Shown piece by piece: positions 16,501 to 64,000 of a DNA stretch of 64,000 nt. The translations under genes and the position numbers were made by a program. The notes below the pieces were generated by a model. The model saw only the letters and a list, made by a program, of their open reading frames with translations. It was not told where the DNA came from and did not search any database. This stretch comes from Daphnia pulex (taxonomy: Eukaryota; Arthropoda; Branchiopoda; Diplostraca; Daphniidae). The DNA lies in NCBI RefSeq assembly GCF_021134715.1, contig NC_060026.1, positions 14,809,001-14,873,000 of the forward strand, given 5' to 3'. Positions within the stretch are counted from its first letter, which is position 1; every line of letters begins with the position of its first letter.

Positions 16501-16611
16501 TGAAGCCGGTGCGGAATGAGATAACTGCCATCGGCAGGATATGGAAACATTTTATGATGTACCTGGTCGGTTGATTGATTTAGTTTTCTGTTGGTTTTAT
16601 TACAGGTGAAA
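13526..16611. other. intergenic region and 5' UTR of the DM4/12-like gene
   Basis: No supported coding exon; short frames at 14191-14720 could not be joined to a start in phase. Near the right end, a donor at about 16484 (TTAAG|GTACAT) and an acceptor just before 16606 (TTACAG) suggest a 5' UTR intron for the gene that begins at 16612. The region therefore probably contains its promoter and first non-coding exon. Confidence 0.45.
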
Positions 16612-17766
16612 ATGCGTCACTTTTACAAGCACGTCTTATCAGGAATCGTTTTCTGGTTGCTCCTCTCACAGAGTTTGAGTCTGTTCAACAGTTCCAGTGC
16701 AGCATCGACGTCCAGAACTTCTTCTTATACTTCGGAGGTTGCCGAAACGGAAGATGAAGCTGAACTGAGCAAAGAAATGGCAGTGACTCCCAAAGAGGTG
16801 GAAGAAGCAGATGATAAGGAAGATGAAGGATCGGAAGGCAGGGATTTCAGTGAACTGTTGAAGATTGTCAAACGGGAAATTAGTGACGGTGAAACCGGCC
16901 GTTCTTCGTCGGGCATCTTCAACACGACACTCGCCTTTACCATTCCGCTTTTCTCTTTCTCGCTGCCAGACAGAGCCACGGCCGGAAAGGACTACACCAA
17001 ACAGGCCGCTTTGTCGCTCTTCGGTCTGGCCATTGTCGGTGGTATAGCCATCATGCCTTACGTCTGGGCCGCCCGCTCTCCTTTAGGGAAGAAGACTGTC
17101 GTCGAGTAAGTTCTATTTCCAAAATTTATACGAAGGAGAAGAATTCAATTTGAAATTCAATTTTAAAAATAAAAACAGATCCAGCAGAGCAAAAAAAGAT
17201 GAAATCTCTTCATCCATTCTGCCCATGATAGCCAATGTAGCCTCGTTGGCCGGGCTGGACGCCAAAACGTGCGTGCAGCGTTCAGTCTGCGAAACTTACC
17301 GAAATCCGGAACGCTACGGCTACCTGGTGTTCCCCGTCCGCTACTTTATGCTGTAAGTTCATAGGGCTTTATGTCGTCACGGTTAACTGAAATTCTCCCA
17401 AACTTTAAATAACTAAATGGGAAATAAAGGGGGAAGGAAAAAAAAAAGTTACGTAATGTTCCGCAAGAAAGAGTTGAGTGAGTTTATGGAGTCTACGACA
17501 GTTAAATGCGTTCACCGTTGGAGCTCCACCGTTATTACCAACTTTCACTGTAGCGTGACTCAACTCCCATTTTTCTTTCTTCTTTTGTTCAAATGCACAG
17601 ATCCCCTCAATCCCGGGAAGACGATAAACCATCCGAGTATCAACGAGCAGCCGAGTTTGGGCGACAAGAAAAGGAAGAATGTGAGCGGCGCTACCGGTGC
17701 GCTTTCAGTCTTATCGGAGCGGCCAATTTCCTCTTCAGCTACTTCTTACCACCCTCAACGGCCTGA
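16612..17766 (+). CDS. DM4/12-like secreted or membrane protein
   Basis: Three exons in phase (16612-17105, 17179-17352, 17601-17766) encode about 277 residues. The N terminus is a signal peptide or anchor (HVLSGIVFWLLLSQSLSLF), followed by a strongly acidic stretch (EVAETEDEAELSKEM..EEADDKEDEG). A hydrophobic segment (ALSLFGLAIVGGIAIMPYVW) lies mid-protein. The C-terminal part has the Cys layout CVQRSVCE ... AAEFGRQEKEECERRYRC, which resembles the arthropod DM4/DM12 family: a C-x3-x2-CE pair, then A-x2-F/G, then C-x3-Y-x-C. That family is secreted or cuticle-associated in insects and its biochemical role is unknown. The start was chosen because it follows an acceptor and opens directly into the signal sequence. 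The family assignment rests on the pattern alone. Confidence 0.6.
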
Positions 17767-18206
17767 AGAAACAACCGAGATTGCGACTGAACTTTGCCCT
17801 GCACGAGCCCAGTCGCCACTGCAGCGGCATCCTGTGAATTGACTATTTAATATTTATTCAACTATTAGACATTGTTATTTATATGCAAAAGTGCCGTGAA
17901 TTGCCCCTGTTTTGAAATGACAAAGATTTGCCAAAACTCTTTTCTTTAACCCAATCCCATACTTTGCACACCATCTTTAATTTATGCTTAACCGCGACCG
18001 ATTAATTATTTTTTCCCTCTCCCCCCAAAAATTGTGTAATAATTGGCGGAACGAACTAAGGACGTCCCGCATAGGATTGATGCCGTGAGTGATAAACCAC
18101 TTGTGTACTGAGTTTACTGGGAATCCAGATGTCGAACACAAAGAAAAATGAATTAGATTGATTGATTTAAGAAAAAAAAAAAAGGGAAGATTGTTACAAA
18201 ATCCGT
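17767..18206. other. convergent 3' flanks of the DM4/12-like gene and SAE1
   Basis: AT-rich sequence between two convergent genes, holding both 3' UTRs. An A-rich tract lies at about 18170-18184. Nothing else is seen. Confidence 0.5.
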
Positions 18207-19610
18207 TCAAAATCCAATGGCTTCGACAACACCGTTGAAATCTGTGGCACCGTTAAAGAAAAAGTGATTGCGGATGGGTGCGTCTTTGTGGGACACGGCT
18301 TTGATAATTTCTTGAGCCAAAACTCCACCCACAACCGCAGCCCCTGGACTAAGTTCGCCAAATACCACCCTAAAAATAAATTCACATTAATATTAAATAA
18401 TATAACACACTGACATTTGATTGAATTTATATTAATGCTTAGTGGGCTATCAAAAAATTCTATTGCGATCCTTACTCGTATGCACAGCTGTCAATTATTT
18501 GGTTGTCCAGTTTCATTTCGTGTTGAATGTGATCCCGGATTTCACACAATTTCGCAATGTCAGACTGACGGTTTGCAACTTCTGGATCGCGTTTCATTTG
18601 AGAGCGGAACATCAGCAAACCTGTGGTGAATATCGGGCAACATTAATTAATGCACCTAAGCTATTCAATTGGAATTGATTTTTCTTGAATTTGTACTTTT
18701 CATCATGATGAAATGGCTCTTGATACGCTGCCAACTTCTTTTGTTGAGCTGAGCTGCTGCATCAGCTTCAAATGCTGCTTGTAAAGGAATATAGTTGAGA
18801 ATATGCTTGACGGTTTTTGTTTCACTTTGGTCAGCTTTTGTCTTCAAAGAGCAAGCATCATTGGCAGCTGGAGCAGCAACATTTACTTCTCTGTATACAC
18901 GAAGAAAATGTAAATATAGATTTCACTGTTGCAGTTTCTACTTGACTCAACACTTACTCAGCATATTCATGTTCAAGCAGATCGACAAAGAAGAAACCAG
19001 TGAATCCAAACACATCCCCTGAATAGAATGGAATGCTGTGCTTGCGACAGATACTGTTGACCCTAAAAGACTCTTCAACTGCCAATCTAGTTGCACAAAC
19101 AACATCAAAACCACTAAAGAAATCTTCATTCTTAGTGGTAACATTGTCTTGGTCAGCTATGACTTCCACCATTGGGTTTAAACGCTGCACTCTTTCCAGT
19201 GAAGCTTCAACCACCTTGCAAACAAAACATGCAGATATTAACAATAAGGACAAAATTGCTTTAGAAGGAAATACTTACATTCTTTCCAACAAGTTCTCGG
19301 GGAACAAGGAAATTGGCAGAATTAGCAACAGCAACATTGTGATCCAGCAAGGTTAGGGATTTGATTCCCGACAGAGTCAAGTTCTTGGCGATTTCAGCAC
19401 CTAAACCACCTAGCCCAATGAGCAAAACTCGAGCTGCACGAAGTCTGCAATATAATGCAATTTATAACTTGCGTTAAATGCACTCAAGATTTTTTAGTAA
19501 CATTATCTTTTTGCAGACCTTTTCTGTGCTTCCAGTCCCCAAAGTCTGATTTGCCGGTCGTAAAGTGCTGCTTCAGCTTCACTGATGGTTATTTCTTCTT
19601 TGGCCACCAT
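18207..19610 (-). CDS. SAE1: SUMO-activating enzyme subunit 1 (Aos1/SAE1)
   Basis: The minus-strand ATG at 19610 begins MVAKEEITISEAEAALYDRQ, followed by IRLWGLEAQKR, the standard opening of E1-like SUMO-activating subunits. Exon 1 is 19610-19519; exon 2, from 19444, carries ARVLLIGLGGLGAEIAKN, the Rossmann nucleotide-binding signature, and LTLLDHN. Later exons give NPMVEV..., FDVVCATRL and IPFYSGDVFGFTGFFFVDL. The last exon carries FGELSPGAAVVGGVLAQEIIKAVS and ends GVVEAIGF at 18207. SAE1 pairs with UBA2/SAE2, which supplies the catalytic Cys, to adenylate SUMO and pass it to UBC9 in the nucleus. The exons account for a full-length subunit. No damage is visible. Confidence 0.92.
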
Positions 19611-20356
19611 TTTAATACTTGCTTCAATTTTGATTGTTTAAATGTTTTAAACAAAATTAAAGTGACGAATTGAGTATCTAAACTACAAAAAGGTTTGGAA
19701 AAATCCCAGATCTCTCTGCAGTGGATATGTCCGTCTGAATTTTCGTAAAATTCATGGAGTGTAGACGCTGCGTTGCCATTTCCAGAATTAGAATATTTTT
19801 GGATATTCAAATTTTTCCCGAATTTTGAACGAACGAATAAAGAACGGTTTCCATCTAGTTTATTACCACCAATGCTTTACGCACAATGGGCTCCAACAAT
19901 ATATAAACGGGCGTTTTTGAAACGAGAAGAACAGAGAGGCTGGCTGCTGCTAACACCTAGAAATCAGGCCGAGCTTATGTTTGAATATGTACAAGTGCAT
20001 TTGACAATGAGATGGGGAATGTGTGGATTTAGGGACACAGAACATCACAGACAGAATAATCGTCCACAATTAACACAAAAAGAGTAGAATGTCGAAGAGG
20101 TAATAACAATCAAATGATGTTGAGCATATATAAATGGATTGACGAAATTGATTGCATGTGTTGAGAGAATGGATGTTGACGCCAAACAGAGATATGGTTC
20201 GTTGACTGAAATGATATGATACACATCGCGTAATAGTACATCAGACACTTAACGACGACACGACAATGAAACAACGTCTCCAACAACAACAATAACAACA
20301 ACAATTAAGTGAAACGTGTCGATGATGATCGGATTTTTTTCAAACACTAATTGAAT
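19611..20356. other. SAE1 5' flank and 3' flank of the Fife-like gene
   Basis: Holds the SAE1 promoter and the 3' UTR of the large scaffold gene, including a CAA-rich stretch at about 20280-20306. A plus-strand open frame of 72 codons at 19872-20087 is present, but I found no domain, splice partner or regulatory support for it. Confidence 0.4.
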
Positions 20357-23300
20357 TCAGAGAATGGTGCAGGCCGCTCCGTGACATCCGGAGGAAGAAG
20401 AATCCATCATTAGTCCGGAAGACATGCTAGCCCTTGCCATGCTACTTCTTTGCTGGGAACCTTGTTAAAACAAATACAAATTTAGGAATAAATCAACTTG
20501 AATAAATTCTTAGCAATTTGTTACCTGCAGGTTTGCCGTTTGTGTACTCGTTGCCGTGGTCTGGAGCCATTGGTAGACTGGCCAATCCGCCGGAATTATC
20601 TTGCAATGTATACCAATGCGGCTGTTCGTCAATGGTTCCTGGATCTTTTAACGTAATAAAAATCAAATTAAAGTGTTTTCATGCTGATATTAATTCAAAT
20701 TTAGCTACCAGCAAGATCGAGAAGGAATTCACCGAGGAATTCAAGTCGGCCGTCGGATTGGTGATGCCACACCGTCACTTCCAGTTGACGTTTGATGAGA
20801 TCGGCGGGCGGAACAGCCGGATAAACCTAATTTAAACATTAAACCTCAATTAAACAAAATTGAAATGTTAAACAGTTTGAATTGAAGCGAACCATAGTTT
20901 GGTGCCATTCCGGATCGCTAGTCAGGCTCAAATAGCGAGTCCGGCGTTCGTTTTCGACTTTCCGGCCGGGAAGCAGAACACATCGGACAAGCGGATCGGG
21001 TCGGGCGTCACCATTGGGTCGTCGGGTCTGCAGTTTTCTGGCCCGGATGATTGTCACGTAAAGGATGTGAGCCCGGCTGTCGTAGCAGGAAAGTAATTGG
21101 ACTTGACCCAGAGGCAGTGTCCACTTGCGCTTCCGCACTTCAGGGTCCTCCAAGCATTCTTCCGGTTTCGGGACTTTATTCCGAATGATCCCTGCGCACC
21201 CGTTATCGATCCGGCGATTATTTCATCAGGTATGGACAAATCTATTGAGAGATTTATATATTTATTACCTTTAACGACCGGCTGTTGAGGTCCAGTTGGC
21301 GGCTGAGGGACGACTTCCGTCGGCGAAGCCGTGCTCAGTTCACTCGTCATATGATTCCGGTTGTTGCTATTTCCGTTCATGTCGATTTCCTCGCGTGGGC
21401 CGGCAATGGTCCTCGTACATTGCTGGACGTTGGACTCGGCGTACTGCGAGCTGGCCTTCTCCCTGGTGGAAATCAAAAATAGGATCGTGAACGGTTAGAA
21501 GATAAAAACGGGATTGCGTGAGTTGTTTATTTATACCCGCAAATGACAATCTCCACTTCGCCTCGGGTGGATGAGATTATACTCTGAACTTCTTCGAACG
21601 ATTTGCTGTTGAGCTGAATGCCATTCCACTCGAGGACCTGGTCACCTTCTTGGACTTCGCCGTGAGTGTCGACCACACCTCCAGGTGAAATCTCAGTCAC
21701 GAAAGCTCCGATTTCGCCGTGCCGACTGCCGGGAATCTCCAATCCGCCCACCACTCGCATTCCCAATCCGTTGTCTTAATGAAAATAAAATAAAATAAAA
21801 TAATTTGGACAATAATTTAAACGAATAAGAATGAATGAATTACCGGTAGTGGCGCTGGATTTGGCATCGCATGTCAACAGGATTCTTTTGGTGGGAAATG
21901 GATAGCGTCTTTTACCTGGTCCTTTGTGCTAATAACAAAATTGGCGTTCGTGCGACACCCCCCGAAAAATCTTTTATAGTCGCAATCGATTTCCCTTTTT
22001 TGTTTTTTGAAATTTAGAAAATTCAATTCAATTATAGTATAGAAACAAACCTCATATGGGCGGTTGGATGAGCGACGGTATTGATTGCGGTTGTCTTCTT
22101 CCGGCTCCGAATAGCAAGGATCTCCACCGTCATAATCAGGTGAATACTCATATCCTGATGGAACGAAACATGTCAAACATTTTGGTTTTCCCATTCAAAT
22201 TTAAAAAAAACCGCGAAAATTTTTCATAAAACCTGATTAAAGAAATTAAATAATAAGAATTAAAAAGATAAAAACTTTTTCGACTCTACTCCACCGGTCC
22301 GGAATGAACCCAACTTTTTATCATTTTACTTTACACAAAGATAATAATAAAGTAATTGTTAAAAAATATAGTAAATGTTTTAAAAATAAATAAAATAATA
22401 ATTAATTTGGTGGATGACGTTTCTACTCGCCGGAGCAATCGAAAACTGTTTGTTTCGACGATAAACCCGCTCGTGGTAGTACATAATTTCAATGTTTTTG
22501 TTTCTGAGTGCGTGTGTGCCTGTTCTCCAAGTGATTTAAATCGACTGCCGATGGAGAAAAAAAAATAATCGATTCGCCACAATCAACGACAAAACAACAA
22601 CAACAACAACTTTTGGAAATAGAAATAAAAATAAAATAATGAAGACACTCAGTTTTTTGGCTCCAATAAATGCGATAATTTAAATCGAGTTAATATGTAT
22701 AAACATTAATGAAATACATTTAGTGATTGTTATGTAATGTAATAATAATAGAAGAATAATAGATCGAATGTCTAATAAGATAGAGAGAGAGAGAGAAAAA
22801 GGATTTGTTGTTAGTTTTCTTTTTGCGCGACGAAGGCCCGAAAAAACGTGTAATTAGCCAGCCAACATTGATGAGAATTACATGCAATGAATTGAGAGAG
22901 AGAGAGTAGAGAGTAGAGAGTTAGAGAGAGTTAGAGAGAGAGAGAGAAAAAATGAAGTGTTGGGGGTGGTGGTGGTGGGGGGTTGTGGTGGCAAGGGAGG
23001 GGAGACAAGGAAATAATTTTTGTTATTTAAAAAAAAATCCAACAGCAGCAGCCCCAAAAAACTTTTGACATTTTACACACACGATTTTTGGTTTGTCTCT
23101 CTATTTTTTTTTAAATTTAAATTTAATTATTTTTATTAGGGATGGGGAATTAAAAGGATAGAATTTGATGCCTTTGATTTTTTCCCCAAGGGAAGAGTTC
23201 AAAAGAGAATGAGGCAATAACACATATATAACGATATATTGCGTATATGCATGGTCTGCTGGAAATATGTAAATTGTCCCTCACGGGTTTGATATCTCTC

Positions 23301-26300
23301 TCTCTCTTTTGTTTTTTCACGCAGCTAATAATTGCACGAATTTTTTTTTACGAAAAAAAGGCCCACAAAATTGTTTTTGGGGAATTATTAACGAGCAAAA
23401 ATCAGAGAGAGAGAGAGAGTGAAAAATGGGGAAAAAAAAAATTCAAAATAAAACAATTTTGGAGGGAAAGATATGGAAAAATGATTCCCTCTGGAACACA
23501 CACACACACAAACACCTCGCGAGATCCCTTATTTCCCCCAAAGTGTCAATTGGAAACAAATCCGAGCGTTCAGACCACCAGCAGCAACATTATGATAACG
23601 CGCCTTCTTCAAAAATTCAATAAAAAATGCAATAAAAATCAACTAAATCAAAACGATAAATTGAATTTTAAAAAATGATAAAATAGGGGAATAAAGAGAA
23701 GAAAATAATCATGCGAGTAAAAGAAATCCTCCATCGTGTTTTATTGATCGGTTGACAGGTTATCTCTCTGCCAAACAAAAATGACGTTCAAGTGCGCTGC
23801 TATCGACATTATAAGTGACGTTTAATAATTTCCAGAGAGAAAATTGGAAATTAAAAATTTTGTGATTCCCTTTTTTCTTTCAAAGTAAAACACTGACGCA
23901 ATTCAATCCGTAGATCGAATCCAAATTTAATTTTTAAAAAATCTTTCTAATCAGTCGCAGAGAGAGAGAGAGATATTAAATATTGCATCATAGGGGGGGG
24001 GACTTCGACGATTTTGTTTTGGGAGGGGGGAATAATATTAAGAAGAGTTAAATATCGGGTCGGTTCATAAGGCACCAGGAATTGAAAAAAAAACTAAATT
24101 TTGTTTGTTTCGATCGACTCTCTAAAAGGAAATTTTAAAAAAGAGCTGCTGCTTTTTCTTCATTAAATAGGAAAAGAGGTCGAGGGGGGGGGGAATAGTG
24201 GGAGAGGCGGGATTTTTAAAAAGGGAGGGTCACGATATCAATGAGACAAGTGCACATGGCTACTATGTATATATGGCCCATCATTTCCATCAATCCAATT
24301 GAAATTAATTCTTGCACGAATAAAAACCAAAAAAAGGTAAAATTACGAAATGATGCCATCCAAAGGAAAAATTAAAATCAATAGAAATGAATTAGAAATT
24401 CGGGGATGTCCCACTATAAATAATGAAACAGTTGAGGGAATATAATAATAATACGTCATTCAAAAAAACGACATTATATGAAATGTGTGTGTGCAGCAGA
24501 ATGTCCCAGAGAGAGAGAGAGATAAAACCAACATTTCTCTCGTTTTTAAAAATTTTACAAATAAAAATAAAAATAAATTTCATCAATGGAATAATCGGGG
24601 AATTATTTATGTTGATGGGAATGAATAAATGGCGGGATCGGAGGGGGGGGGCTTGACCTACTAAGAAATATAATACGGTGCTTTGACGACGAAAACGAAT
24701 AATTTTTACCAAGACCACACACAACATACACCGAAGGAAAGAAAAAAGAAATACTACTGATAGGAATAAATACACAATCTACTCAAAAAATGTTGTTTTT
24801 GGTTCTTTTTCCATTTTTCATATAAAATCGATAATCTTTTCTTTTTTTAAATTCTTGTGCCTGCTGGATTTTAAATGGGGAAGAAGAAGATCAAACTGAA
24901 AATCAATCAAGAAGTAATGAAGAAAAGGAAAGAAAATGAAAAAAAGAAAATGGTGTGATCAAAAGATGGTTGGGTGGTGTGGAACACATCAAAAGCGTCA
25001 AACACAAATGAGAAAAAGATGATGATAATAGATAGTCAAATGTTTTTTTTTGGAAATATCTTAGTGACGCGTTAAAAAGGAAAACAATGAAAAGGCTGAT
25101 GTCACTAAATTAATTTTTTAAAAAAGAAAAAAGAGAGAGAAAAAACTACCGGGACACAAAAACCAGACACACGTTTTAAATTGCTCGGTCGAGACGCGTC
25201 ATCATCCAAAGAAAAGAAAAAAGGATAGAAGAAAATTAAATTTTTTTCTGTTTTTTTCTCTTTTTTTTTAAATATAAAAATGCAAATTAGGAAAAAAAAA
25301 ATAAATAATTCAAAAGTGGGAAATTCATTCCTAATAAAAAAACTGACTGTCTATGGCCAAGAGTCCATTTGTTTTTTGTTTCTCTTTGATTCCACATCAA
25401 AATTAAATATTTTTTCTAAATTTGCTGGGATTCCCCGGCTCTTAAAATGAATTAAATTTAAGTTTTTTGTGCTGTTTTGTTCAAATATCGAGCTCGTTTT
25501 GAAGATTTAAAAAATAAAAATCCCGCCCAAAAAACTTGTGATGACCGAAAATATAAAAATAATTCAAAAATAAATTCAAAATGTTGCGCTGGTGGCACGC
25601 CGGAGAATTCGGTTCCATGACGGAATTATTTGGGGAAATAAAACCCTCCCCCAAAAAATTCCTGTTTTAATTTTTTGTTCTTTTTAGGGACGGGAATGTG
25701 AGGATGATGATGGCCATTTGATCAAAATTTTGTTCTTTTTTTGTTTTGTTTTTTAAATTTTGAAATAAATTTTTACGCGCCGAAATTCAAAACGACAGAA
25801 AAATTCAGCGCGGCGACAAATAGCGCGAGGTACTGTGCGGATGTGCCCCGGACGCTCCTCCTCCTCCGTACTTGCCTCGTGACTGGATGTGCATCGTCGG
25901 CGCATCGTTGGCGCTGGCGTAGGCCAAATCCTCCAGCAGCTTGCGCGACCGGCTGGGCATGTCCGGCAAGAGCGGCATGGCCGTCGGACCGGCCCCCGTG
26001 TTGTACATCATCATGTGTTCGCCACCGCCTCCGCCGCCCAGCTCAGGATCGCTGGCCAGAGGCGAGAAATCGTGCAGACGCTCGTAGAGACTGCTGGTGT
26101 AGTCTTCCGTCCGGAATGTGGAGGCCAGCCGCTCCATGCTGCGCTCCTCTTCCGTCGGCACGCCGGAATAGTTGCCAGAACTGCGGGCCGGACTGGCACC
26201 TCTCGAATGCGACCCGTACTGGTGGTGCTGGGCCGACGACATGTGGTGGTACGGACGTCGGGTAGGAGACACGTGATGGTGATGACCTCCGCCCATGTAA

Positions 26301-29300
26301 TCCGGCTGGTACAAGTGACCGCCGCTGGAACTGCTCCGGGATCGATGGATGAAATCCCGATCTTCCCGCAAAATGTCGTTGATGGATCGCAAAACGGACG
26401 AGTTGTTGGCGGCGGCCGCTAGCCGGGCAGCGTTTCCGCCGCCACCGCCGTAGGATCCGCCGGAACTATTCCCGCCCACCAGTCCGTGATTGGTCTGATA
26501 ACCGCTCACCTAAATGAAATCGAGCGAAAAATCGTCTGAATGTGAATCAATACATTAACGGGATCGATCCCGGATCAAAACGGGCCCACAACTTACGTCA
26601 CCGGATTCGCGCAGACGGGACAGGCGGAGTAATTCGTCGTGAAGTCGTGAATTCTGTTCGATTTGTTGCCTCCGGCGTGCGATTTCCGCCTTGATCCTCT
26701 GTTTTTTGGCCTCGCGGGTCAGGATGTCGTCCTCGGCGTCCAGGAACTCTTCGTCGCTGCCGTAAGGCGACGGGTGCCAGGATCGAGGCTTCCTCGACAA
26801 GAGGATCGATTTGGAATGGCCGCCGGAATTGTGATGGCCGTGATGGCCGCCGTGGTGTCCACCGCCCAGCATCATTCCACTGCGATCGGCAATGTCGTAA
26901 CTAAGTCCACGGGTCAACATCCGAGGATCGTTGGCGTAACGGGATCGACTCGACTGGCCAGACTGGTGATGGGAGGATCCACCGCCCGTCAACCCGACCA
27001 AAGAAGGATCCATCAGATAGTCAGTCATGGTCATTCCTCCATCGCTGGATCTCCTGGCGTGAGTCCTGAAAAAGATCATATGATTAGTATAAGGATCGGG
27101 TTAATTTCGCTTTTAGGGGGAAGGGAGGATTTACCTCCGGCTACCAACGGCCGAGTATTTCCGTGAAAGGAAATCATCGTCCTCGGTGAGGAGTCGGTTG
27201 AGAGCACTGCCGGAATAAGAAGTCGGTATGGATCGATGGCGATCCCAATCGGCTTTATTGGCCATCCCCACACCGCCGCCCATGTTCAGCTCTTCCATCG
27301 ATTCGTATTCGTAAGCCTTGGCCCGGCTCATCGATTGAGATCTGGCCGTCGAGTATCTCTGTCAACGTTCCAAAAATAAATAAAATAAAATGAAATAAAT
27401 TCCCCGATCCTTTCCTTACGTCAGAAGATTCTTCGCGTTCCCGCATGAGCGAAGAGACTCTGGGATCGGACAACTGCCGTCGATGCCCTCGGCTTTTGCG
27501 GAGTCGGGAGGAGACGCCGGAAGTTGCCGATGATTGAGCTGCTCCAATGAGTCCGGCGGCGGCGCTGCCCGGTCGCCTCTGAGTATCGAATCTAATCCGC
27601 CGGACCAAATGATTTTTAGAAATGAAAATTAACTGAAATTTGCAATTGGATTTTTACCTTTTCATCGGGTCTCTGAGTGCGGCAAATTTTTCCAGCTCGC
27701 GGCGGATCCTCAGCTCCCGTTCGCGGTCCTTGTCCGTTTGGTTCCTAAGTCGAGCCCGATCCTCCGTTAGTCTCTGCAGCTCCTCCTCCAAGGCTCGGCG
27801 ACGTGTCAACGGTGATCCGCGCAAGTCTTCTAGCGCAGCCGTCCGAATTCCGCCCTGCCAAATACCCAAAAGAAATAAAATTTGAATAAACTTCCGGTTT
27901 TGGTAAAAGTTTGCCCGTTTCGGGTACGTCTAAACTTACGACGCTGAGGATGGTCGACGAATCGTTGGTCGTCGAGGATGTGGTCATCACCAAGTTGGTG
28001 CTGGGAGCTCCGACCAAGTGCCGCAAATCCGGCGGAAGGATGGCCGCCAAACTTTCGCGGAGTGTCTGGTCCTCGGATTTGACACTGATGGAAGGATTGG
28101 AGCGGGCGATGCCGACGCCGCCGCCGGCAAGATTGCTCGACGTCAAATTGCTGTTGATGGACGATCGTAATCCGTTGGCGTTGACGATGCTGGACCCCTG
28201 CAAAAGTCCGTGGGCCGATCCGGGTCGGGCGGCCAGCGAGCTGGCCATGGATTCGCCGTAAGCCAATTGTCGCAAATTAGTCTCGGACGTCGGGCGAGTT
28301 AATCCGCTGAAGGAGGCGGCCGACGCCCCGCTGCTGTAGCCCCGGTCGACTCCTCCGCTGGATGTGTTGGCTTCCGTCAGCGAGCCCTGCCGCAAATTGC
28401 TGTAGGCCTTGATCCGCTCCTGGACGCTGACTAACTGCTGCTGCTGTTGTTGTTGCTGTTGTTGGCTCTTGGCCAATTCCAGTTTCTTCTTCTGGACCGA
28501 CGGGAGGAGGGCGGCCTCCTGATCGGGCGGAAGGAGCGGCAGCTTCCGTCTCAGCCGGAGTGAGGCTTGTGAGTCCGTCTCGCTGAGCGTGTCGGGCGAG
28601 TCGCAGGCCAGGAGATCGCGACTGTCACGACTGTGGGTGCCTCCTCGCGGCGTTCCGGCCGGAGTGCCCATCGGCGTCGTGATCGGCGTCCCACCGCCAC
28701 CACCTCCGCCGATCATGAACGAGTGAGCCGCAGGGCCTGGACGCATCATTCCGCCCAGCAGATCGATCTCCGGCGACGCTGTCGGACTGTAAGGTCGCCC
28801 ATCGATCAACCGGATCCTGCTCCTGCGTAAGGAAATAAAAAAACGGAAACAAAAAAGAAAAGGAATTTTTCATTAGAATAAATTTGCACATGGACAATAT
28901 GAACAAAAAAGCAACTGACTTGTGCAGTAAATCGGCGGATCTCAGCATGGAACTGCTGCCGCTGCCGTAGAGATCGGAGTGGCTCGTCTTGTTCGGATCC
29001 GGAACTGGGTGGGGGGGAAATGACAAGGATCGTTTTTAATTCAATGGCCCAACCATCAACCAATCGATAAGACGAGTTACAAACAACTTTTTACGAACCT
29101 ATCGACGACTGGTGCAGCAGGGAGGCCGATGGAGCATTTTGTTGTTGTTGTTGCGCCAACATATTCTTCCGGATGGCTTGCGGAGTCATCTTGTTTGCAG
29201 CCTAACAATTCCGCAGGAATTTAAAAATGTAAAAACTTTTTCTTTGGAAAATGTTGGTGGGTTTTACCATGAGCTGTTGTTGTTGTTGTTGCAGTTCCAG

Positions 29301-32300
29301 GGCGGAATTCTGAACCGTGCCGATCTTGCGGAGTTTTTTCGAGTGCTGGGCCTGGTGCTGCATCTGCATGAAATCCTGGTTGCTGCTGCTGTGGTTCATC
29401 ATGAGCAATTGCTGCTGTTGCTGCTGGATAATGGACTGCTGTTGTTGCAGCTGGGCTGCGGCTTGCTGCATCATTTGCTGCTGGTGGATCGATTGTTGTT
29501 GCTGCTGTTGTTGTTGTTGTTGGGCTTGTCCGGCCGCCAGAGCCGCCGACTGCAGTTGCTGCTGCTGCTGCTGTTGTTGCTGTTGTTGGTTAAACAGGGT
29601 CATTCGATTGGCGGGATCGTTCATAAGGTGATTTTGCGGATGATTGCCCATCAACTGCTGCGCTTGCTGTTGTTGAATGAGCGTCGATTGCTGCTGGCCC
29701 AGCGGCCTGTGAAGTTGTTGATCGATGCCCACCGAACCGGCAACCACCGTCCCAGGAAGTTGGTAGGCCGACGACGTAGGCTGACCGCCGTATAAGTTGG
29801 GTTGTTGTTGTTGCTGTTGTTCCGGCAGCCCAGTCAAGGGGTTGATGGGTTGCTGGGAAGCAATGACGGCCGCCACTCCGCTCTGCTCAAATTGCTGCCA
29901 ACGGACCGGGTCGAAAATAAATTCAATTACAAAACTGAAATATAATGGAATTATTATTCTAAATTCGCTTATGATAACTAACCTGAGCTACTTGCTGGAC
30001 ATAACCTCCGCTCGCATTCACCAGACCGTAAGACTGCTGCTGCTGTTGTTGTTGTTGTTGCAGGGACTGGGGGTTAGACGAATTGATTTGGGTCAACTGT
30101 TTAGTCTGCTGGAATAACTGGGCGCCGACTGTGTTTTCATTAGCCATCATCTGATTATTGGTGTTTACCGCCTGACCCAGTTGTTGCTGTTGTTGTAATT
30201 GAAGTTGCTGTTGCTGTTGTTGTAGAGCCATTTGCTGCTGTTGTTGTTGGTCCATTTGCGATAGAGCGCTGTTGTTGGGGAAGACCGACGAGGCGTAATT
30301 GGCGGCTTGTAATTGCTGTTGGCCGGCGAGACCAGTTTGCGGCTGGAGCGATTGCATCGCTGTCTGTTGTTGTTGTTGTTGGCCTTGTAGTAACTGTTGT
30401 TGTTGTTGGCCCGCGAAAGGGTTCAAGCTCTGGTTAACGAGGAGATTAGTCGATCCATCGGCGGCCGTGAAATAAAGATTCGGCGACTGTTGAATTTGTT
30501 GTTGTTGACTCAATCCGCCCGGCTGGAGCATTTGTTGTTGTTGTAACTGTTGTTGCTGTTGCATTTGCAGTTGTTGTTGTTGCTGCTGGGGGGTGTTCAT
30601 CTTGCCGGCAGCGTTTTGCAAATGGTGTGGCTGTTGCTGGCCCTGCTGATGATTGGCGTCGTTCAACTGCTGGCCAAACGCCTGGTCAGAAGGTGACGAC
30701 CGGGTGGCGTTGCTGCCCAGTCCTGATAGTGTGTAACAAAAAAACAATTGGGTTTGGGGGTGATTCCATTCAACTGATTTTTATGTACGACAACTACACC
30801 ATAAAAACCAACAAGGCCATTTCAGTTCGACAAATGACATCTATAAAATTTAAAACGTACCCAGGGCTCGGCTGAAATCGGCCAGCATTCCGGTGATGGT
30901 TCCGGCTGGTTTGCCAGCAGCAGTTCCACTCTGCTGCTGCTGCTGTTGTTGTTGTTGTTGCTGTAGCTGCTGCTGTTGTTGTTGCTGTTGATTGAACATG
31001 GGGTCGTGACCCAACATGTCGTTGTTGTACTGTTGCTGCTGCTGGATCTGGATCTGCTGCTGGTGATGGAGGAGTTGATTGCTGCCGGCCGTGCCGACCA
31101 CCATCCCGGTGGGCGATAAAGGCATCCTGCGAAACATGGCCGGAATCGAGAAAGATGACGATCACATTGAAGGAGACTCCCAAACGCACAAATGACAATC
31201 GCAGAGAGCAGAGCAGAGTGAGGAGTCTGTCTGTCTGGCTGGCCTGCCCCCTCTCGCCGGAATGGGGCAAAAATGAAAATGAAAATAAAAGACGGAAGAA
31301 GAAGCCAACCAAAAAATGGTCGGGTGGGTGTGGGTGTGGACTGTGTGATGGAAGGACAAGACTTGTGAGTTGTCTCTGCTCTACTATACTACACCCAGTG
31401 TAGTATAGTCAATATCGATACAAGGAGGGTGGATAGAAAAGAAGGACACACAAGGAGGGGTATCGATCCGGGCCGGCTCGAGCGAGAGAGTCGCAGCGAG
31501 CACGACGACCGCAAGCGGATGGAAGATCAATACTGAGCTGCTTCTTCTTCTTTACGGAAAACGGAACGAGAGAGTAGGAAAAGGAAAACGGGGCATGTCC
31601 ACATAGCACAAGACGGGCAGATCCCACCCTTTTAGGCAGTCCCACTTGGGATATCGACCTGTGTGTGTATGTGAACACAAAAATCCTAGCCCCGCTCTTA
31701 TCCATCCATCATGAGAAGCGTTGACTAACCTTTCGTCTTTAAAGTTGGTAGTGGCGGATGCTGCTGGGCCGGCGGTGGCGCTGCTGGACTCGGTGGATGA
31801 TCGGAATCGGATGGCCGACGATCCAAAGTGGCTCATCAAATTCGATGACGAGTTGGACGACGATAATGAGGAAGAAGGAGCCGATGGATCGTGAGGTCCT
31901 CGCAGGAGCCCAGGAGTCGCCGCTGGATTGGCCGATGAGGAGGAAGCGCTGGACCGGTTGTAAAGGGCATTGGTCGGCGAGCCGATCCTCATCTGGGCGT
32001 TGGCCGTCGTCATTTGATCGTTAAACATGGCCAATGCCGATCCTCCTTCGATCCCCGATCCTGATCAACACACACACACACACAAGGTTCTCCGGTTATT
32101 AAGATTAGTTGGCTGGGCGAGGGGTTAATCAAACACAATCATGTCGTTTCTCATCAAAAGCCAATCAGTTAGACACATCAGGATATAACAAGGTATATAA
32201 ATAGTGCAAGCTAAACACACGCACACACATAGGAGGTTATAGAGATATTTATCGGTAGTAGATTGACTAATAAGAGTGGGGTGGAAGGAGGGTCAATAGG

Positions 32301-53612: not shown

Positions 53613-56600
53613 ATGGAAATGGCTACGAAATCGATTGTAAGGTACATTTTCACCATTTTATTTGTTTCGGTCATTTGCTGCAACTGCCAATCAAACAAAA
53701 ACCCCAAAACAAACAACCCCGGCGGTTCATCTTCTTGGGCGAAACTGCAAATCTCAGCGGACACGTTAAGTTCCATGAATTACGGCAACTTTCTCATTGA
53801 AATTTATGAACACGCCAATAATCACAAGCAAACGACAACAGCCAGCCAGAAAAAATATTTCTACGCTCCCATTGCGCTGCTGGACCACACAAGTGCCGTT
53901 AGTTCTTACAACAATGTCACGAAACAATTAGAGATGAGATTTCGTGTAGAAATGTGGAACGACAAAGTCCAAAATGAAGTTGTGAAACATTTAAATGACA
54001 TTGTCGGTCATGAAATCAAATCAAACAGAGTGACAGTCATTCCCTTGGAGAAGGTCATTCTCGCCAACAAAATACCCACAACAGATTATTCGCCATCGCC
54101 AGTGTGGACGAATTATGACAAGAGCAAAACCATTTGGTTTTATATGTCATGTAATGACCGGAAAATCTGCGACGAACTGGCCAATCAAATGCGATCGAAT
54201 CCCAATCAATTTGACCATTTGAAACTCTTGTACAGTTTGTCATCGCAGACGTCACAAACAAAACAGACGACCATCCGCATCGATAGCCTCACTTCCGGTC
54301 AAATGGTCTCGACTCTTTTACAAAAATTTGAAAACAAAAACGAAATTTTTCTGACGGCCAGTGACGAGAAGAAAATGTTGACGGAAACGGCCACCAACAT
54401 TCGAATGGACACATTTGACGACTACGAGGTCGGGTCGCCTGATACTGAACTTCAAATTTCAAATATTTTAAAAGGTATGCTTGTCACGTCCAAGGCGACC
54501 ATAACTAAACAAAGTGACAAAATGTGGGACTCTGTTTTCTGGAATGATGACAATTATCGGCCGGACAAGACGACGAAAACTTTAAATGAAATCTTCAATA
54601 AACTGGACAGGGAAACTCAAAAGAAATTGGCGGACATGTTCCAAAAAGCGGAGAAACAGTCGGTATTGATAGACACATTTTCTTCGAGTAATAAAGACGA
54701 GGAAAGAAAAGGAGAGGAACAAATTCGTCGCGAAAATCAATCGAAAGATGCAAATGAAAATGAAAGGAGAAGATCAGAAGCAACGGACCAAGGACAATCC
54801 AGCCGCAATAAAAGTAAAGATGACAAATCTTTAACTGTTAATGCTGATGGGGAAGCAAATGTGCAAGGGAAAGTGGGTTTGCCAATAAAGATTCCTTTTT
54901 TGCCGAAGATCGACCTCAGTGGTGGAGGTAAAATCGTAGTAGATTACAATAACACGCACAATACTGAACAAGAAAATGAGAAGACTGGCAGGGCAAAAAC
55001 TAATTCTGATGAATATGGCAGAAAGTTGGAGAATAAAGAAAAAATCCAACACAATTTTGACTTAAGCAGTTGGGCTGACGTGGACAGAATCAGTTCAACA
55101 ATGTCAGGGAAAATGGCAAAAGATTCCGATCGTTCCCGGCGTGTAGAAATTTCAAAAGAAGAAATGGCAAAATTATTACAAGAAAGTAAAAATCACGTCC
55201 AATGGGATGGAGAAAAATTCGTTCCCAAACCGATGCAACTCAGCCGAATCAATTTGGCCAAATTTCGTGATTCTCAATCCTTTCAGGATCGCAACGATCG
55301 TGTCCGTTACACGACCGCTGAACTGTCGGCGCCGATAAAAATTATGGAACACGCAGAATTGACCGTCACTGACGAATGGAACAATTTAAAGGACGAATTC
55401 AAAGGTTTGGAAAAAGAATGACTAAATATTCGATTAAATTATTAACAAATAATTGTAATTGAATTCCAGCCATCACTGAGCTGTTTGTTGATATAGAAAT
55501 TAACACGTGAACCTGTTTGCTGCAAAGAACGCTTTGTATTGCTACTCGCCTAGCCACAATCGTCAACAGCACTGAGTCCCCCTCTCTTATTCCTTTGTCT
55601 GGGTAGGTCCTTCTCCCCCTCTCTTCTTTCCTGGCTATCCTGCGTTGCCGCACTGTCCAGTTTGTTTATCTTTTATACTCAACACCTCCCCTCAAACTGG
55701 ACCCCCAAAAATAAACATGAGCACAGAATACACAGCATATTTGAATCAGACATAAATACTAGGTTCAGTGTCACAAGACAAATAATAAGAAAAGAAATAT
55801 CAGCCTCCTTTAACTCTTCAGTTACACCTCCCCTACACCCCGAACGCCAATCTTGTCACGGAGATACTTGAAGCGTGGAGCAGCCAGGGGTTTCGTGAGT
55901 GCATCGGCCAGTTGCTCCTGGGAGCTTACATAGTTTATCATCTCTTCTGTCATGTCGATCGTAACGCTTCCTTTTTCTGTCCGCTTCTTCTCCTTCTCTC
56001 TCACGCCGGCGTTTGTATTGACGGCATTGAGCTCTAACATGCGTAGTGGAGTTGCACTCCCAGCATGTTCTCGGTATACCAGCATGTTGACTGGAAGGGT
56101 GGCTTTTTCCTTTGTTCTGACCGTACTGGGCAGGAAGTGCTTGCTCTTTGTGCTGTGATTCATCTCTGTTCGGCTTACTGAGATAGGCAGTATCAGATGT
56201 CGATTTTGCTTCTTCGTCGTTGCGCAGGCTCTTGTCCAATGCTATAAGGCGAGTAGTCAGTTTCTTGAGAGTTTTCTCTGCAACAGGCGTGCTGTCCCAT
56301 GCAAAGGCAAAAACACGGAACTCTGGAGGAAGCGACATGAGTATCTTTGCCATTATTTGATTATCATCAATAGCTATGTTGAGGCTCTTCAGACGGAATG
56401 CTATCTGTTCCAACTCAGTCAGGAAGCTTGATACACTTTGGCTTGGTCGAAATGTGCATCCATAGAACTTTGTCCACAATAGAGGTGCATTGTCTGCGGC
56501 ATCTTCTTCATACTCAGTCTCCAATTTCATCCACATCTCTTGGGCTGTGCTACAAGACATCAGGATCCTTGATTGGTCTTCTTTGATGGCGCCAAATATG

Positions 56601-59103
56601 TTCTGCATTGCCGTGGTATTTCTCTTGTTCCAGTTGGTTATATCAGCTGCATTTTCAATCACCTGGTCAGCATTGCGTCTCTGATTGTGGTAACAAAACG
56701 AGAAGATGGTTAGGTTTGTGATATCCATGGCAGCCTCACATTATCTCAATGTGGAATCTCCCTCACATCATCTCGATGTGGAATACCTCTCACATTATCT
56801 CAATGTGGAATCTCCCTCACATCATCTCGATGTGGAATACCTCTCACATTATCTCAATGTGGAATCTCCCTCACATCATCTCGATGTGGAAAAACACTCA
56901 GCTGTCTCCTAGATGCTTGCAACTCTAGCACACACTTGTCCACCATCATATGATGGAATTTAGCCAGAGTGACCAAACAGATTGAGAAAGAAACACAAAA
57001 AAGAGAAATGTCCAGCAAACACAAACACACAAAAAACAAAATCAAGTGGCAGAGATTAAGCACTCACGCCGGGATCTAAGTTTGTCAATTTAATAGTTGG
57101 TACCACGCCACAGATAGGCATCTCATATCGCGTTGTTGTCAGGCACGGATCACACACATAAAGAAAACAATAAATCATCAATAAACTTACTTCAGCAGGT
57201 TGCCGTTGAGTCCCGTTCACGACTTCCCAAAGCTCAACACTTTGTAACGCCAGCTTCATTCCAAATTTCCAAGACGCGTAGTTTTTCCCATTCAGACACC
57301 ATACAACATGGCGGCGGCCATCTTTCTCCATCACTCCAGAAAAGAATTTCTAATTTCTTGGGAACAGTTAGCCGGGGACACACACAAAAAAAAATAATTG
57401 TTCAGACAGAGTAGCTGTTAGCTGTGCGTACAGCTGGGCCCATAACCTGTTGATATAGAAATTAACACGTGAACCTGTTTGCTGCAAAGAACGCTTTGTA
57501 TTGCTACTCGCCTAGCCACAATCGTCAACAGCACTGAGTCCCCCTCTCTTATTCCTTTGTCTGGGTAGGTCCTTCTCCCCCTCTCTTCTTTCCTGGCTAT
57601 CCTGCGTTGCCGCACTGTCCAGTTTGTTTATCTTTTATACTCAACACTGTTGAGAGCAACTGTGAATAATTTGGTTATAACGAGAACGGAACTGAATAAT
57701 ACGAAGAGTGAATTAACTAAAACGCGAATTGATTTAACTGATACAAATTATAAATTAGAAGGTATTTTGATTTATTTATGATTTGGAGACAACTGCATTT
57801 AAATCTTGTGTACAGAGACTCAAAAGGAGTTGGTGAAAACGAGGGCTGATTTAACCAAAAACCTCGATGGTTTATCTTCCAAATTAAAGGGTATTTTACT
57901 TTTTTTTTAAAATCATATAGATCTGATTCCAAAAACTTTTCTTAAAATAAATTTAGCGACCGAAAAATTGAATTTAATTCTGTTTTCTTAGATTGTGTAG
58001 CGAATTCCGATCGATTAGGTCAAGAATTAAAAGTTGCTGAAACAAATTTGAAAAAAGATCTAAGAGGTAAAAAAATGTTTCTAAATTATTATTTGAAATT
58101 GATTTAATTTTAATTGGATGAAATGGTTATCAGCGACTTCAACTGATTTGGAAACTACAAAAACAAATTTGGCCTCAACGAGAACCGAATTGGGCAGCAC
58201 CAAATCCGCCGTTGCGGATTTGGTGACCAAATTAAATGGTAAGAATATTTTAAATGAATAAAATAAAAATAAATGATATATACATATGTATATATTAATA
58301 TATATAAATAATATAAAATTAAATGAATAAATGTTTTACAAGACACGATTAAAAGAATTGAATTCCATTTTCAATAGCCCGAACGAGTGAAATAGTCGAC
58401 ATTGGTCGAATGCCAACATCGTGTGCGGATCTACAGCGGACGGGACATAAACTTAGCGGATTCTTTTCAGTCAAAGGATCAAAGAAGATGGAAATGATTT
58501 ACTGCAACTTTTATTCTAATCAAAATGGTACGTCTTGTTCATGTTTCCTGGTTATTGTTTGTCTAATTCTTTTGTTTACAGACAAACAGAAATGGATCGG
58601 ATACGCCGACGTCAAATCAGAGCCCGTTCATTTCTACGTACAGAGAAATTCTTCATTTTACAACGAATCAACTCCAATTCCGTATAATTTGGCGGTGGTG
58701 AACGAGGGAAACGCCATGAATTTGACATCTGGAATATTCACGGCACCGCGACCGGGAATTTATTTTTTCTCATTCGCGGGAGTGGCGCGTCTTAAAGATT
58801 CATCTGATGTTTATTTTTATTCTCGTCTTTATTTGAACGGGAATCGAATCGGGTCGAGTCATATTCGCGAGGATAACGGTCCCGTTGATCAACATAGTGT
58901 GGTGACCCTCCAGTCGACGCTGAACTTAAAAAAAGGCGATCAACTCTGGGTGCAGATTTCTTATTCAGGTTCATCCTCATATTTGTATGAAGCTAACAGT
59001 TTCCGAATGTGGAATTGGGTCGGTAACCTAATTTTCAACCCAAACTACTTGACCCATTTCACGGGTCTCATGTTGGAGGAGGAAATTGCGGCGTCCCTTT
59101 GAG
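53613..59103 (+). CDS. C1q gene B: N-domain / coiled-coil / C1q protein, split by an LTR element
   Basis: The ATG at 53613 opens into a signal peptide (KSIVRYIFTILFVSVICC). Exon 1, to 55404, encodes the same unrecognised domain as gene A (KKYFYAPIALLDH, VEMWNDKV, CNDRKICDEL, RSNPNQFDHLKLL) and then about 370 polar residues with no recognised fold, including a Lys/Glu/Asn-rich linker. Exon 2 starts at 55470 and is interrupted after codon bases at 55485 by a 2.16 kb retroelement; the exon resumes at 57652 with frame kept if the element and one 5-bp duplication are removed. Coiled-coil exons follow (about 57812-57892, 57994-58069, 58136-58239), then an SCADLQRTGHKLSGFFSVKG module (about 58380-58529) and the C1q head from 58582 to 59103 (KWIGYADVKS, SGIFTAPRPGIYFFSF, HFTGLMLEEE). 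As it stands the allele is probably disrupted. Confidence 0.78.
55486..55684 (-). repeat. LTR, 3' copy in element orientation
   Basis: 199 bp, TG...CA ends (read either way as TGTTGATATAG...CTCAACA on the plus strand). On the minus strand it contains TATAAAAG near its start, a likely promoter TATA box. By eye it is identical to the copy at 57448-57646. Confidence 0.93.
55822..57334 (-). pseudogene. Copia-type gag with an intron-like gap and a pol remnant
   Basis: The first part (57334-57191) begins MMEKDGRRHVVWCLNGKNY and has the Trp-containing NYASWKFGMKLAL segment typical of Copia Gag. A donor GTAAGT at 57190 and an acceptor ending at 56681 bracket 510 bp; both sides are in phase 0, so removal leaves one frame. 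The second part (56680 to about 56000) has TEYEEDAADNAPLLWTKFYG, FLTELEQIAFRL and a zinc knuckle CWECNSTTHVRAQC. A different frame from about 55960 to 55822 carries the RNase H C-terminal remnant (EQLADALTKPL). Most of pol is missing. Gag would package element RNA; whether this copy is expressed is unknown. Confidence 0.75.
56735..56896. repeat. six 27-bp hairpin monomers inside the gag intron
   Basis: Six tandem 27-bp units alternate between two variants. Each holds a perfect 6-bp inverted repeat with a 5-nt loop: CACATT-ATCTC-AATGTG in one and CACATC-ATCTC-GATGTG in the other. The single difference within the stem is matched by a compensating change on the other arm. The array lies wholly within the 510-bp intron-like part of gag. 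Confidence 0.88.
57448..57646 (-). repeat. LTR, 5' copy in element orientation
   Basis: 199 bp, identical by eye to the copy at 55486-55684. It is followed on the minus strand by the primer-binding site at about 57447-57434. The match between the two LTRs implies a recent insertion, because both copies are the same at the moment of integration. Confidence 0.93.
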
Positions 59104-63133: not shown

Positions 63134-64000
63134 TCAAAGTGACGCGGCAATTTCCTCCTCCAACATGAAACCCGTGAAATGGGTGTAGTGGACATTGCTG
63201 AAGTCAACCAAATACGAGGATGAATCAGAAGAATAATAAATCGCCGCCCAGACTTGATCTCCTTTTTTCAAGTTCAGCGTCGACTGGAGGGTCAACGGAC
63301 TTGATTGAGCAACGGGGGCGTTATTCTCATGAACATAACTCGACCCGATTATTTCCCCGTTCAAATAAAGATGAGAATTAAACTGAACATCAGATGAAGA
63401 TTCAAGACGCGCCAGTCCCGTGAAAGATAACAAATAAATTCCCGGTCGCGGTGCCGTGAAGATCCCCGACGTCAAATCCATGGCGTTTCCCTCGTTTACC
63501 ACCTCCACATCGAACGGAATTCGAGTGTATGTTTTGTTAAATGGAGAACTTCTCTGGACGAAGAAATGGACGGGCGCCGATTTGACGTCGACGTATCCAA
63601 TCCATTTTTGGAAACCTTTTCAATCAATTAAAAAAAAAAAAAATAGATAATTGCAATTGATTAATTGGTGAGAATCTAAAACATTTACCCGCATCGTCAG
63701 GGAGTTTAGTGAAATCGCAGTAAACGGATTCCATCATCGCCGATCCCATGACGGAATAAAATCCGCTCCAGATGTGGCCAATGCTTTTGAGATCCGCGCA
63801 CGAAGACGGCAGTCCGTTAATGGAAACAACAGCCGATGGATTGTTGCTAATTGAAACAGAGTCGGTTGCTGCTGCTGTGCGTTCATTTTTTTCTCGTGAA
63901 AAACAAGTTTTAAAAAGCGAATCTTGTTGTTCAACTTTGGCCTCCAGTTTTCCTATTTTGACTTCCAATTGGACATTTTTGGCCTCTAATTGAATTACTT
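63134..64000 (-). CDS. C1q gene C, partial at the window edge
   Basis: The last two exons and part of a third are visible on the minus strand. The C1q exon spans 63615-63134 (FQKWIGYVDVKSAPVHFFVQ, SGIFTAPRPGIYLLSFTG, HFTGFMLEEE). The exon ending at 63689 carries SCADLKSIGHIWSGFYSV with a later Cys (VYCDF), the same module as in genes A and B. Upstream of it is coiled-coil sequence (EVKIGKLEAKVEQQDSLF) reaching the window end, so the N terminus is not seen. It differs from gene B by lacking about 16 residues between the SSSYL strand and HFTG. It faces gene B tail to tail across the protease homologue. A secreted oligomeric C1q protein is likely. Confidence 0.82.

Follow-up and report, generated by a model that had tools for sequence, protein, structure and literature searches.

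A C1q-domain gene split by a Copia-type element in Daphnia pulex

The window analyzed here is a stretch of 64,000 nucleotides of the Daphnia pulex genome (C10:14809001-14873000; our own-genome searches covered the assembly of 133.19 Mb in 13 contigs). It contains a gene for a C1q-domain protein whose second exon is split by a long terminal repeat (LTR) element of Copia type. With the element left out, seven exons join into a frame of 947 aa that has no internal stop and ends in a C-terminal C1q domain. All introns of this gene are phase 1, and the lengths of exons 2 to 6 can all be divided by three (Table 1). The exon borders are predictions from the sequence, and the paralog L040 backs those of intron 1 and exon 2. 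Leucines recur at every seventh residue across exons 2 and 3, which may point to an oligomerizing stalk, and exon 1, with its 597 codons, gave no Pfam match above the cut-off.

When the host flanks are joined with a single CTGTT, they form an exon of 126 nt (55470-55485 plus 57652-57761). The paralog L040 aligns across this join, also with a single CTGTT, and a 60-nt block over the site shows one mismatch and no gaps; an in-frame gap of 9 nt in L040 lies further along exon 2. Another paralog, L048, is also alignable across the site and has diverged more than L040. The original prediction had placed an element at 55486-57646 between two copies of CTGTT, within a coding exon. The results showed that these coordinates are exact to the base, and that the flanks join into an exon which L040 matches without interruption. 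It had further stated that the exon goes on in the same frame after the element, which is true once the element is removed, whereas in the DNA as it stands the frame meets a TGA at 55508-55510. Because 19 other places in the assembly carry the same sequence with different flanks, a chance origin of the element call is ruled out.

The gene belongs to a large family. At least 150 matches to the C1q exon, the window gene included, were found in the assembly (150 of 270 candidates scored), together with at least 12 other near-full-length paralogs of exon 1, ten of which have no stops and two of which do (73 of 113 candidates scored). The best other match to exon 1 is 81% identical, so the assembly holds no second allele of the gene. 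Searches for the empty-site pattern in viral contigs and for the LTR pattern in genome contigs gave no match each, as expected for an animal genome, in a set that may omit the records of this genome.

Two side observations concern the same family. At C7:2418406-2437610, four fragment pairs of broken exon-1 paralogs with equal scores are spaced by about 6,090 bp, apparently as a tandem array. Near the C-terminus of the C1q domain, window positions 58980-59060 encode about 14 extra residues, noted by eye, that are absent from the window paralog at 63134-63619 (minus strand).

The element is a gag-only Copia derivative

The genes of the element run antisense to the host gene. Its ends are TG...CA, and its direct LTRs of 199 bp show 0 differences on alignment, as the original prediction had it; the repeat finder gave 200 bp, the extra adjoining base being a chance match. 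The primer binding site is of the tRNA-Met type, which is the Copia type, and it ends at tRNA position 39 as in Drosophila copia, which primes with a half tRNA. The whole gag, taken from an intronless copy, matched PF14223 with an expect value (E) of 1.9e-29 over profile positions 1-171 and PF13961 with E 2.3e-7, while gag exon 2 alone gave a weaker match to PF14223 (E 1.3e-25, profile positions 12-171). Exon 2 also contains a CCHC-like knuckle, CWECNSTTHVRAQC, named by eye.

The protease, integrase, reverse transcriptase and RNase H of a Copia pol, in that order, were not found; what remains is the 3' end of pol, by its resemblance presumably the end of RNase H. The element has the TG...CA LTRs, the short target duplication and the gag of a Copia element, and it has the features of TR-GAG elements, namely LTRs, a primer site, a purine tract, a single gag open reading frame (ORF) and no pol. 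It is a non-autonomous gag-only Copia derivative, rather than a complete Copia. Calling it a Copia element, as had been done before, fits its gag, LTRs and duplication, and leaves unsaid that it lies antisense, has gag alone and lacks pol.

Table 1. Features of the C1q-domain gene and of the inserted element (window positions)
Feature	Position	Strand	Basis
C1q gene exon 1, ATG at 53613, 597 codons + 1 base, phase 1	53613-55404	+	open frame, dN/dS, paralogs
Intron 1, 65 nt, GT...AG	55405-55469	+	full-length alignment in paralog L040
Exon 2, before element	55470-55485	+	joined frame, paralog L040
Target-site duplication CTGTT, left copy	55481-55485	.	direct reading, copy comparison
Non-autonomous gag-only Copia-type LTR element, 2,161 bp	55486-57646	-	repeats, copies, Pfam
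LTR (3' in element orientation)	55486-55684	-	direct repeat
Premature TGA of the C1q frame within the LTR, codon 611	55508-55510	+	frame reading
Purine-rich tract GAGGGGAGG adjoining the 3' LTR	55685-55693	-	polypurine tract by inference
AATAAA in host sense, possible premature poly(A) signal	55710-55715	+	motif only
Remnant of pol 3' end	55822-55934	-	alignment to L031
gag exon 2, Retrotran_gag_2	55856-56680	-	Pfam
gag intron, 510 bp, GTAAGT...CAG	56681-57190	-	missing to the base from C8:3685583-3687233
27-bp tandem repeats within gag intron	56734-56895	.	repeat search
gag exon 1, 47 codons, DUF4219	57191-57331	-	Pfam; frame start at 57331
Primer binding site, 15 nt pairing with tRNA-Met positions 25-39 (tRNA of this genome)	57433-57447	-	
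LTR (5' in element orientation), TATAAAA at LTR position 8	57448-57646	-	direct repeat
Target-site duplication CTGTT, right copy	57647-57651	.	direct reading, copy comparison
Exon 2, after element	57652-57761	+	exon 2 = 126 nt, 42 aa, six heptads
Exon 3, 75 nt	57816-57890	+	
Exon 4, 75 nt	57992-58066	+	
Exon 5, 105 nt	58134-58238	+	
Exon 6, 150 nt	58378-58527	+	
Exon 7, C1q domain + stop	58582-59102	+	PF00386, E 4.1e-14

The element belongs to a young family

The own-genome search for the element, in which 41 matches were examined and the copy counts are lower bounds, found at least 20 full-length copies including the window copy (L003), plus a spliced copy (L022) and an older relative (L021). 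None of the 19 other full-length copies has a single substitution against the window copy; nine are identical to it throughout, and the other ten differ solely in how many Ts make up the runs at element positions 253-261 and 645-650. The LTRs within each copy are identical in all 20, and a 5-bp duplication flanks 19 of them. The older relative (C3:5699179-5701403), which is 91% identical, differs by 108 substitutions plus indels.

To convert these counts into ages, we used the D. pulex mutation rates of 2.30e-9 to 4.53e-9 given in PMC12926508. The original prediction had called the insertion recent because its LTRs look identical. The recency stands, but LTR identity by itself dates poorly: we set it aside as too weak, since the 398 bp of one LTR pair allow 1.7-3.3 million generations as the 95% upper bound. 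The same bound is 0.31-0.60 million generations for one whole copy, and 15,000-30,000 generations for the 20 copies if their radiation was star-like. The youth of the insertion is claimed here because the 20-copy comparison shows 0 substitutions.

Another copy, L007 (C5:4593543-4595703), splits a leucine-rich-repeat frame of 259 codons near its start (PF13855, E 6e-19), where the frame resembles a signal peptide by eye. Elsewhere in the assembly this host frame has no close second copy; its next best match there shares 36% identity over partial length. Such a hit in a gene is what one would expect of a family that has had no time to be cleared from genes. A further copy, L010, lies in another long frame that has no Pfam match. 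At least two of the 20 copies, those in the window and at L007, are probably in coding exons.

An apparently spliced copy lacks the gag intron to the base

The gag frame of 20 of the 21 young copies is continuous only once the intron is removed. The remaining copy, L022 (C8:3685583-3687233), is the element minus this intron, base for base: element positions 1-456 and 967-2161 abut, its gag frame of 321 aa is continuous, and it has its own 5-bp duplication, GTCAC. Because the loss of the intron is exact, we read L022 as retrotransposed spliced RNA, and its origin as an integrated reverse transcript of a spliced RNA would be the simplest reading. L021, the 91% relative, retains both splice sites (GTGAGT and CAG), as does L031, the 75% relative (GTAAGA and CAG), indicating that the intron predates the burst and that the loss in L022 is derived. 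In the relative L032, the acceptor is kept and the donor is unclear. The 27-bp repeats within the intron (56734-56895) alternate, each with a short inverted motif seen by eye, and related repeats were matched in L021, L031, L032 and L034.

Relatives and the search for a partner

In the longer relative L031, the counterparts of element positions 1707 and 1714 are separated by about 3.4 kb, which is the part of pol that the element lacks. The older relative L021 is also without pol, and the sequence at its junction is different, so its pol may perhaps have been lost by an independent deletion. Mobilization in trans by an autonomous partner would supply the missing enzymes. At least 153 Copia-type reverse transcriptase (RT) matches were found in the genome (150 of 280 candidates scored), and 18 of those listed sit in open frames longer than 1,000 codons. 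No pol-bearing copy with a close version of the element LTR was found among the 41 matches of the own-genome search.

Several relatives were considered as partners and rejected. L031 matches the gag of the element at 75%, but its frames are broken up and its RT match has three stops; L032 is more decayed than L031. The RT of L033 is broken as well, and where the 3' LTR begins (element positions 1948-2035) this locus is no more than 71% similar to the element. L035 and L036 have only the LTR and leader in common with the element, and the one L035 frame tested gave no Pfam match. A shorter relative, L034 (C4:8582000-8586000), has two LTR-like ends about 1.1 kb apart, between which it keeps the leader, a portion of gag exon 1 and the repeats of the intron; it gave no match to gag exon 2.

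Consequences for the C1q gene and alternative explanations

In an unspliced read-through, translation would cover 13 codons of exon 2 before the stop, with the final ones already in the LTR. As this stop is codon 611, a transcript that retains the element would lack the remaining coiled coil and the C1q domain, and it is most likely that the window allele yields no protein with a C1q domain. The overall explanation that we consider probable is that a gag-only Copia element, reverse-transcribed and integrated in trans by the enzymes of another element, would have entered a hitherto intact C1q-domain gene in very recent times, landing antisense in the first of its coiled-coil exons, where it would stop the frame 13 codons into exon 2 and abolish function. 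We rank loss of function first and skipping of exon 2 second. The original prediction that carriers of the insertion have no intact recognition protein is likely as regards the loss, given the TGA, and uncertain in that the symmetric exon 2 could be skipped. Loss of this gene may also be buffered, because the assembly contains at least 150 C1q-domain matches, this gene among them.

Several results weigh against this explanation. Skipping exon 2, which is flanked by phase 1 on both sides, would leave 905 aa in frame, and splicing around the element may occur. Between exon 1 and its closest paralog in the assembly, the synonymous (dS) and nonsynonymous (dN) divergences over 580 codons are 0.321 and 0.105; their ratio of 0.33 is consistent with past constraint, but it is a pairwise average of both genes and no proof that the window copy was functional. 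Open frames were not in excess where the 20 copies had inserted (median of 82.5 codons, against 76 at random positions within the same flanks), in a test that counted stop-free stretches alone and scored the window locus itself at 60 codons, read from the strand that does not carry the gene. L015 (C10:16065168-16067327) is the sole full copy of the 20 without a target duplication, perhaps through recombination or a deletion at the target. The bound on the age of the burst presupposes star-like descent, the differences in T-run length in ten of the 19 copies have to be counted, and assembly polishing or gene conversion could have helped to make the copies uniform.

The insertion may also be fixed, and the gene may be a young pseudogene without consequence, one loss among many paralogs. 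The birth and death of copies is normal in this family, as seen from the at least 150 C1q exon matches and from the stops in two of the at least 12 other exon 1 paralogs. However, the gene carries no other disabling change, and 0 substitutions over 20 element copies point to a very recent event, so we regard fixation as doubtful.

It is somewhat less likely that the insertion is tolerated because exon 2 is skipped together with the element, exon 1 being joined to exon 3 in a protein 42 residues shorter with an intact C1q domain. The phase 1 introns and the divisibility of exons 2 to 6 by three would permit this, and the heptad register is preserved when exon 2 is removed. Modules like exons 2-5 also vary in number at the paralog loci (19 loci compared), and those resembling exons 4 and 5 occur twice in L045. 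On the other hand, cryptic splice sites, retention of the element or early polyadenylation, for which an AATAAA is present at 55710, are equally likely a priori.

The next alternative concerns how the element lost pol rather than what it did to the gene. Its pol-less form could be the reverse transcript of a subgenomic gag RNA made by splicing, like that of Drosophila copia, instead of the product of an internal deletion or a template switch. What is missing corresponds to the stretch that splicing takes out of copia RNA, which is nearly the whole of pol, or 2,950 nt (PMC3735527), and the same element family has produced a spliced copy at its gag intron. Yet no clean GT...AG was found at the corresponding boundaries of L031 and L032, both of which are about 25% diverged; a template switch would explain a short stretch such as GAGATGATAA just as well, and the junction left by the pol deletion in the older relative L021 differs in sequence. 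We consider this origin unlikely.

An assembly artefact, with the element misplaced in the exon or its copies homogenized by polishing, is hardly credible: the copies do differ in homopolymer length alone, a typical site of assembly errors, but each has its own flanks, 19 of the 20 have a perfect 5-bp duplication, and the window flanks join into an exon matched by a paralog.

Comparison with known systems

TR-GAG elements are LTR elements of plants with a single gag ORF, and the example from Arabidopsis is of Copia type (PMC8704663). The Daphnia element resembles them in its two LTRs, its one Gag ORF, its lack of pol and its presumed mobilization in trans. Unlike them, it resides in an animal, its gag is split by an intron of 510 bp, and no pol-bearing element with a close LTR is among the matches found for it.

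Like Drosophila copia (PMC3735527), the element has a Copia-type gag and would make a gag product without pol; unlike copia, it lacks pol in the DNA itself, and its intron lies inside gag, not across pol. BARE1 and BARE2 of barley (PMC3735527) are likewise of Copia type with an intron at gag, and BARE2 relies on the proteins of another element. According to the BARE authors, spliced RNA has to be excluded from replication (PMC3735527), whereas a spliced copy has been integrated in the Daphnia family.

The Copia elements catalogued in D. pulex belong to a superfamily that is abundant in the genus, with short LTRs and short target duplications like those described here (PMC2996953, PMC5427498). 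The survey of 2010 reported Copia elements of 4,064-8,184 bp (PMC2996953), and that of 2017 retained candidates with putative Pol ORFs (PMC5427498). A gag-only family of 2.2 kb would escape both surveys because of this size range and this requirement.

A C1q gene of D. magna near Pasteuria resistance loci shows trans-species polymorphism and encodes a COLFI domain (PMC11193740). It shares with the window gene a globular C1q domain at the C-terminus, and differs in its COLFI domain from the window gene, which has a first exon of 597 codons without a Pfam match and heptad-rich exons. Our literature search turned up no earlier description of this element family or of any gag-only element from Daphnia, and no case in which a spliced copy of an animal Copia element had integrated.

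Implications

Being hit by a young LTR element is nothing out of the ordinary for a large gene family, and the more unusual part is the intron-bearing gag-only family with its integrated spliced copy. It is plausible that the window insertion is young enough to be segregating still. More tentatively, the family may be transposing in populations living today, with unspliced RNA serving as its genome and spliced RNA making Gag and occasionally being copied back, as L022 suggests. The window insertion may then be among the most recent products of this activity, and an allele, still segregating, that knocks out a gene for pathogen recognition.

The family bears on the spread of gag-only elements without their own pol in animals, and on how an LTR element retains an intron needed for its Gag. 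The 20 copies with the intron, set against the one without, are a natural measure of the leakage of spliced RNA into replication. If the window insertion is segregating, it would provide presence/absence genotypes at a C1q-domain gene for tests of parasite resistance.
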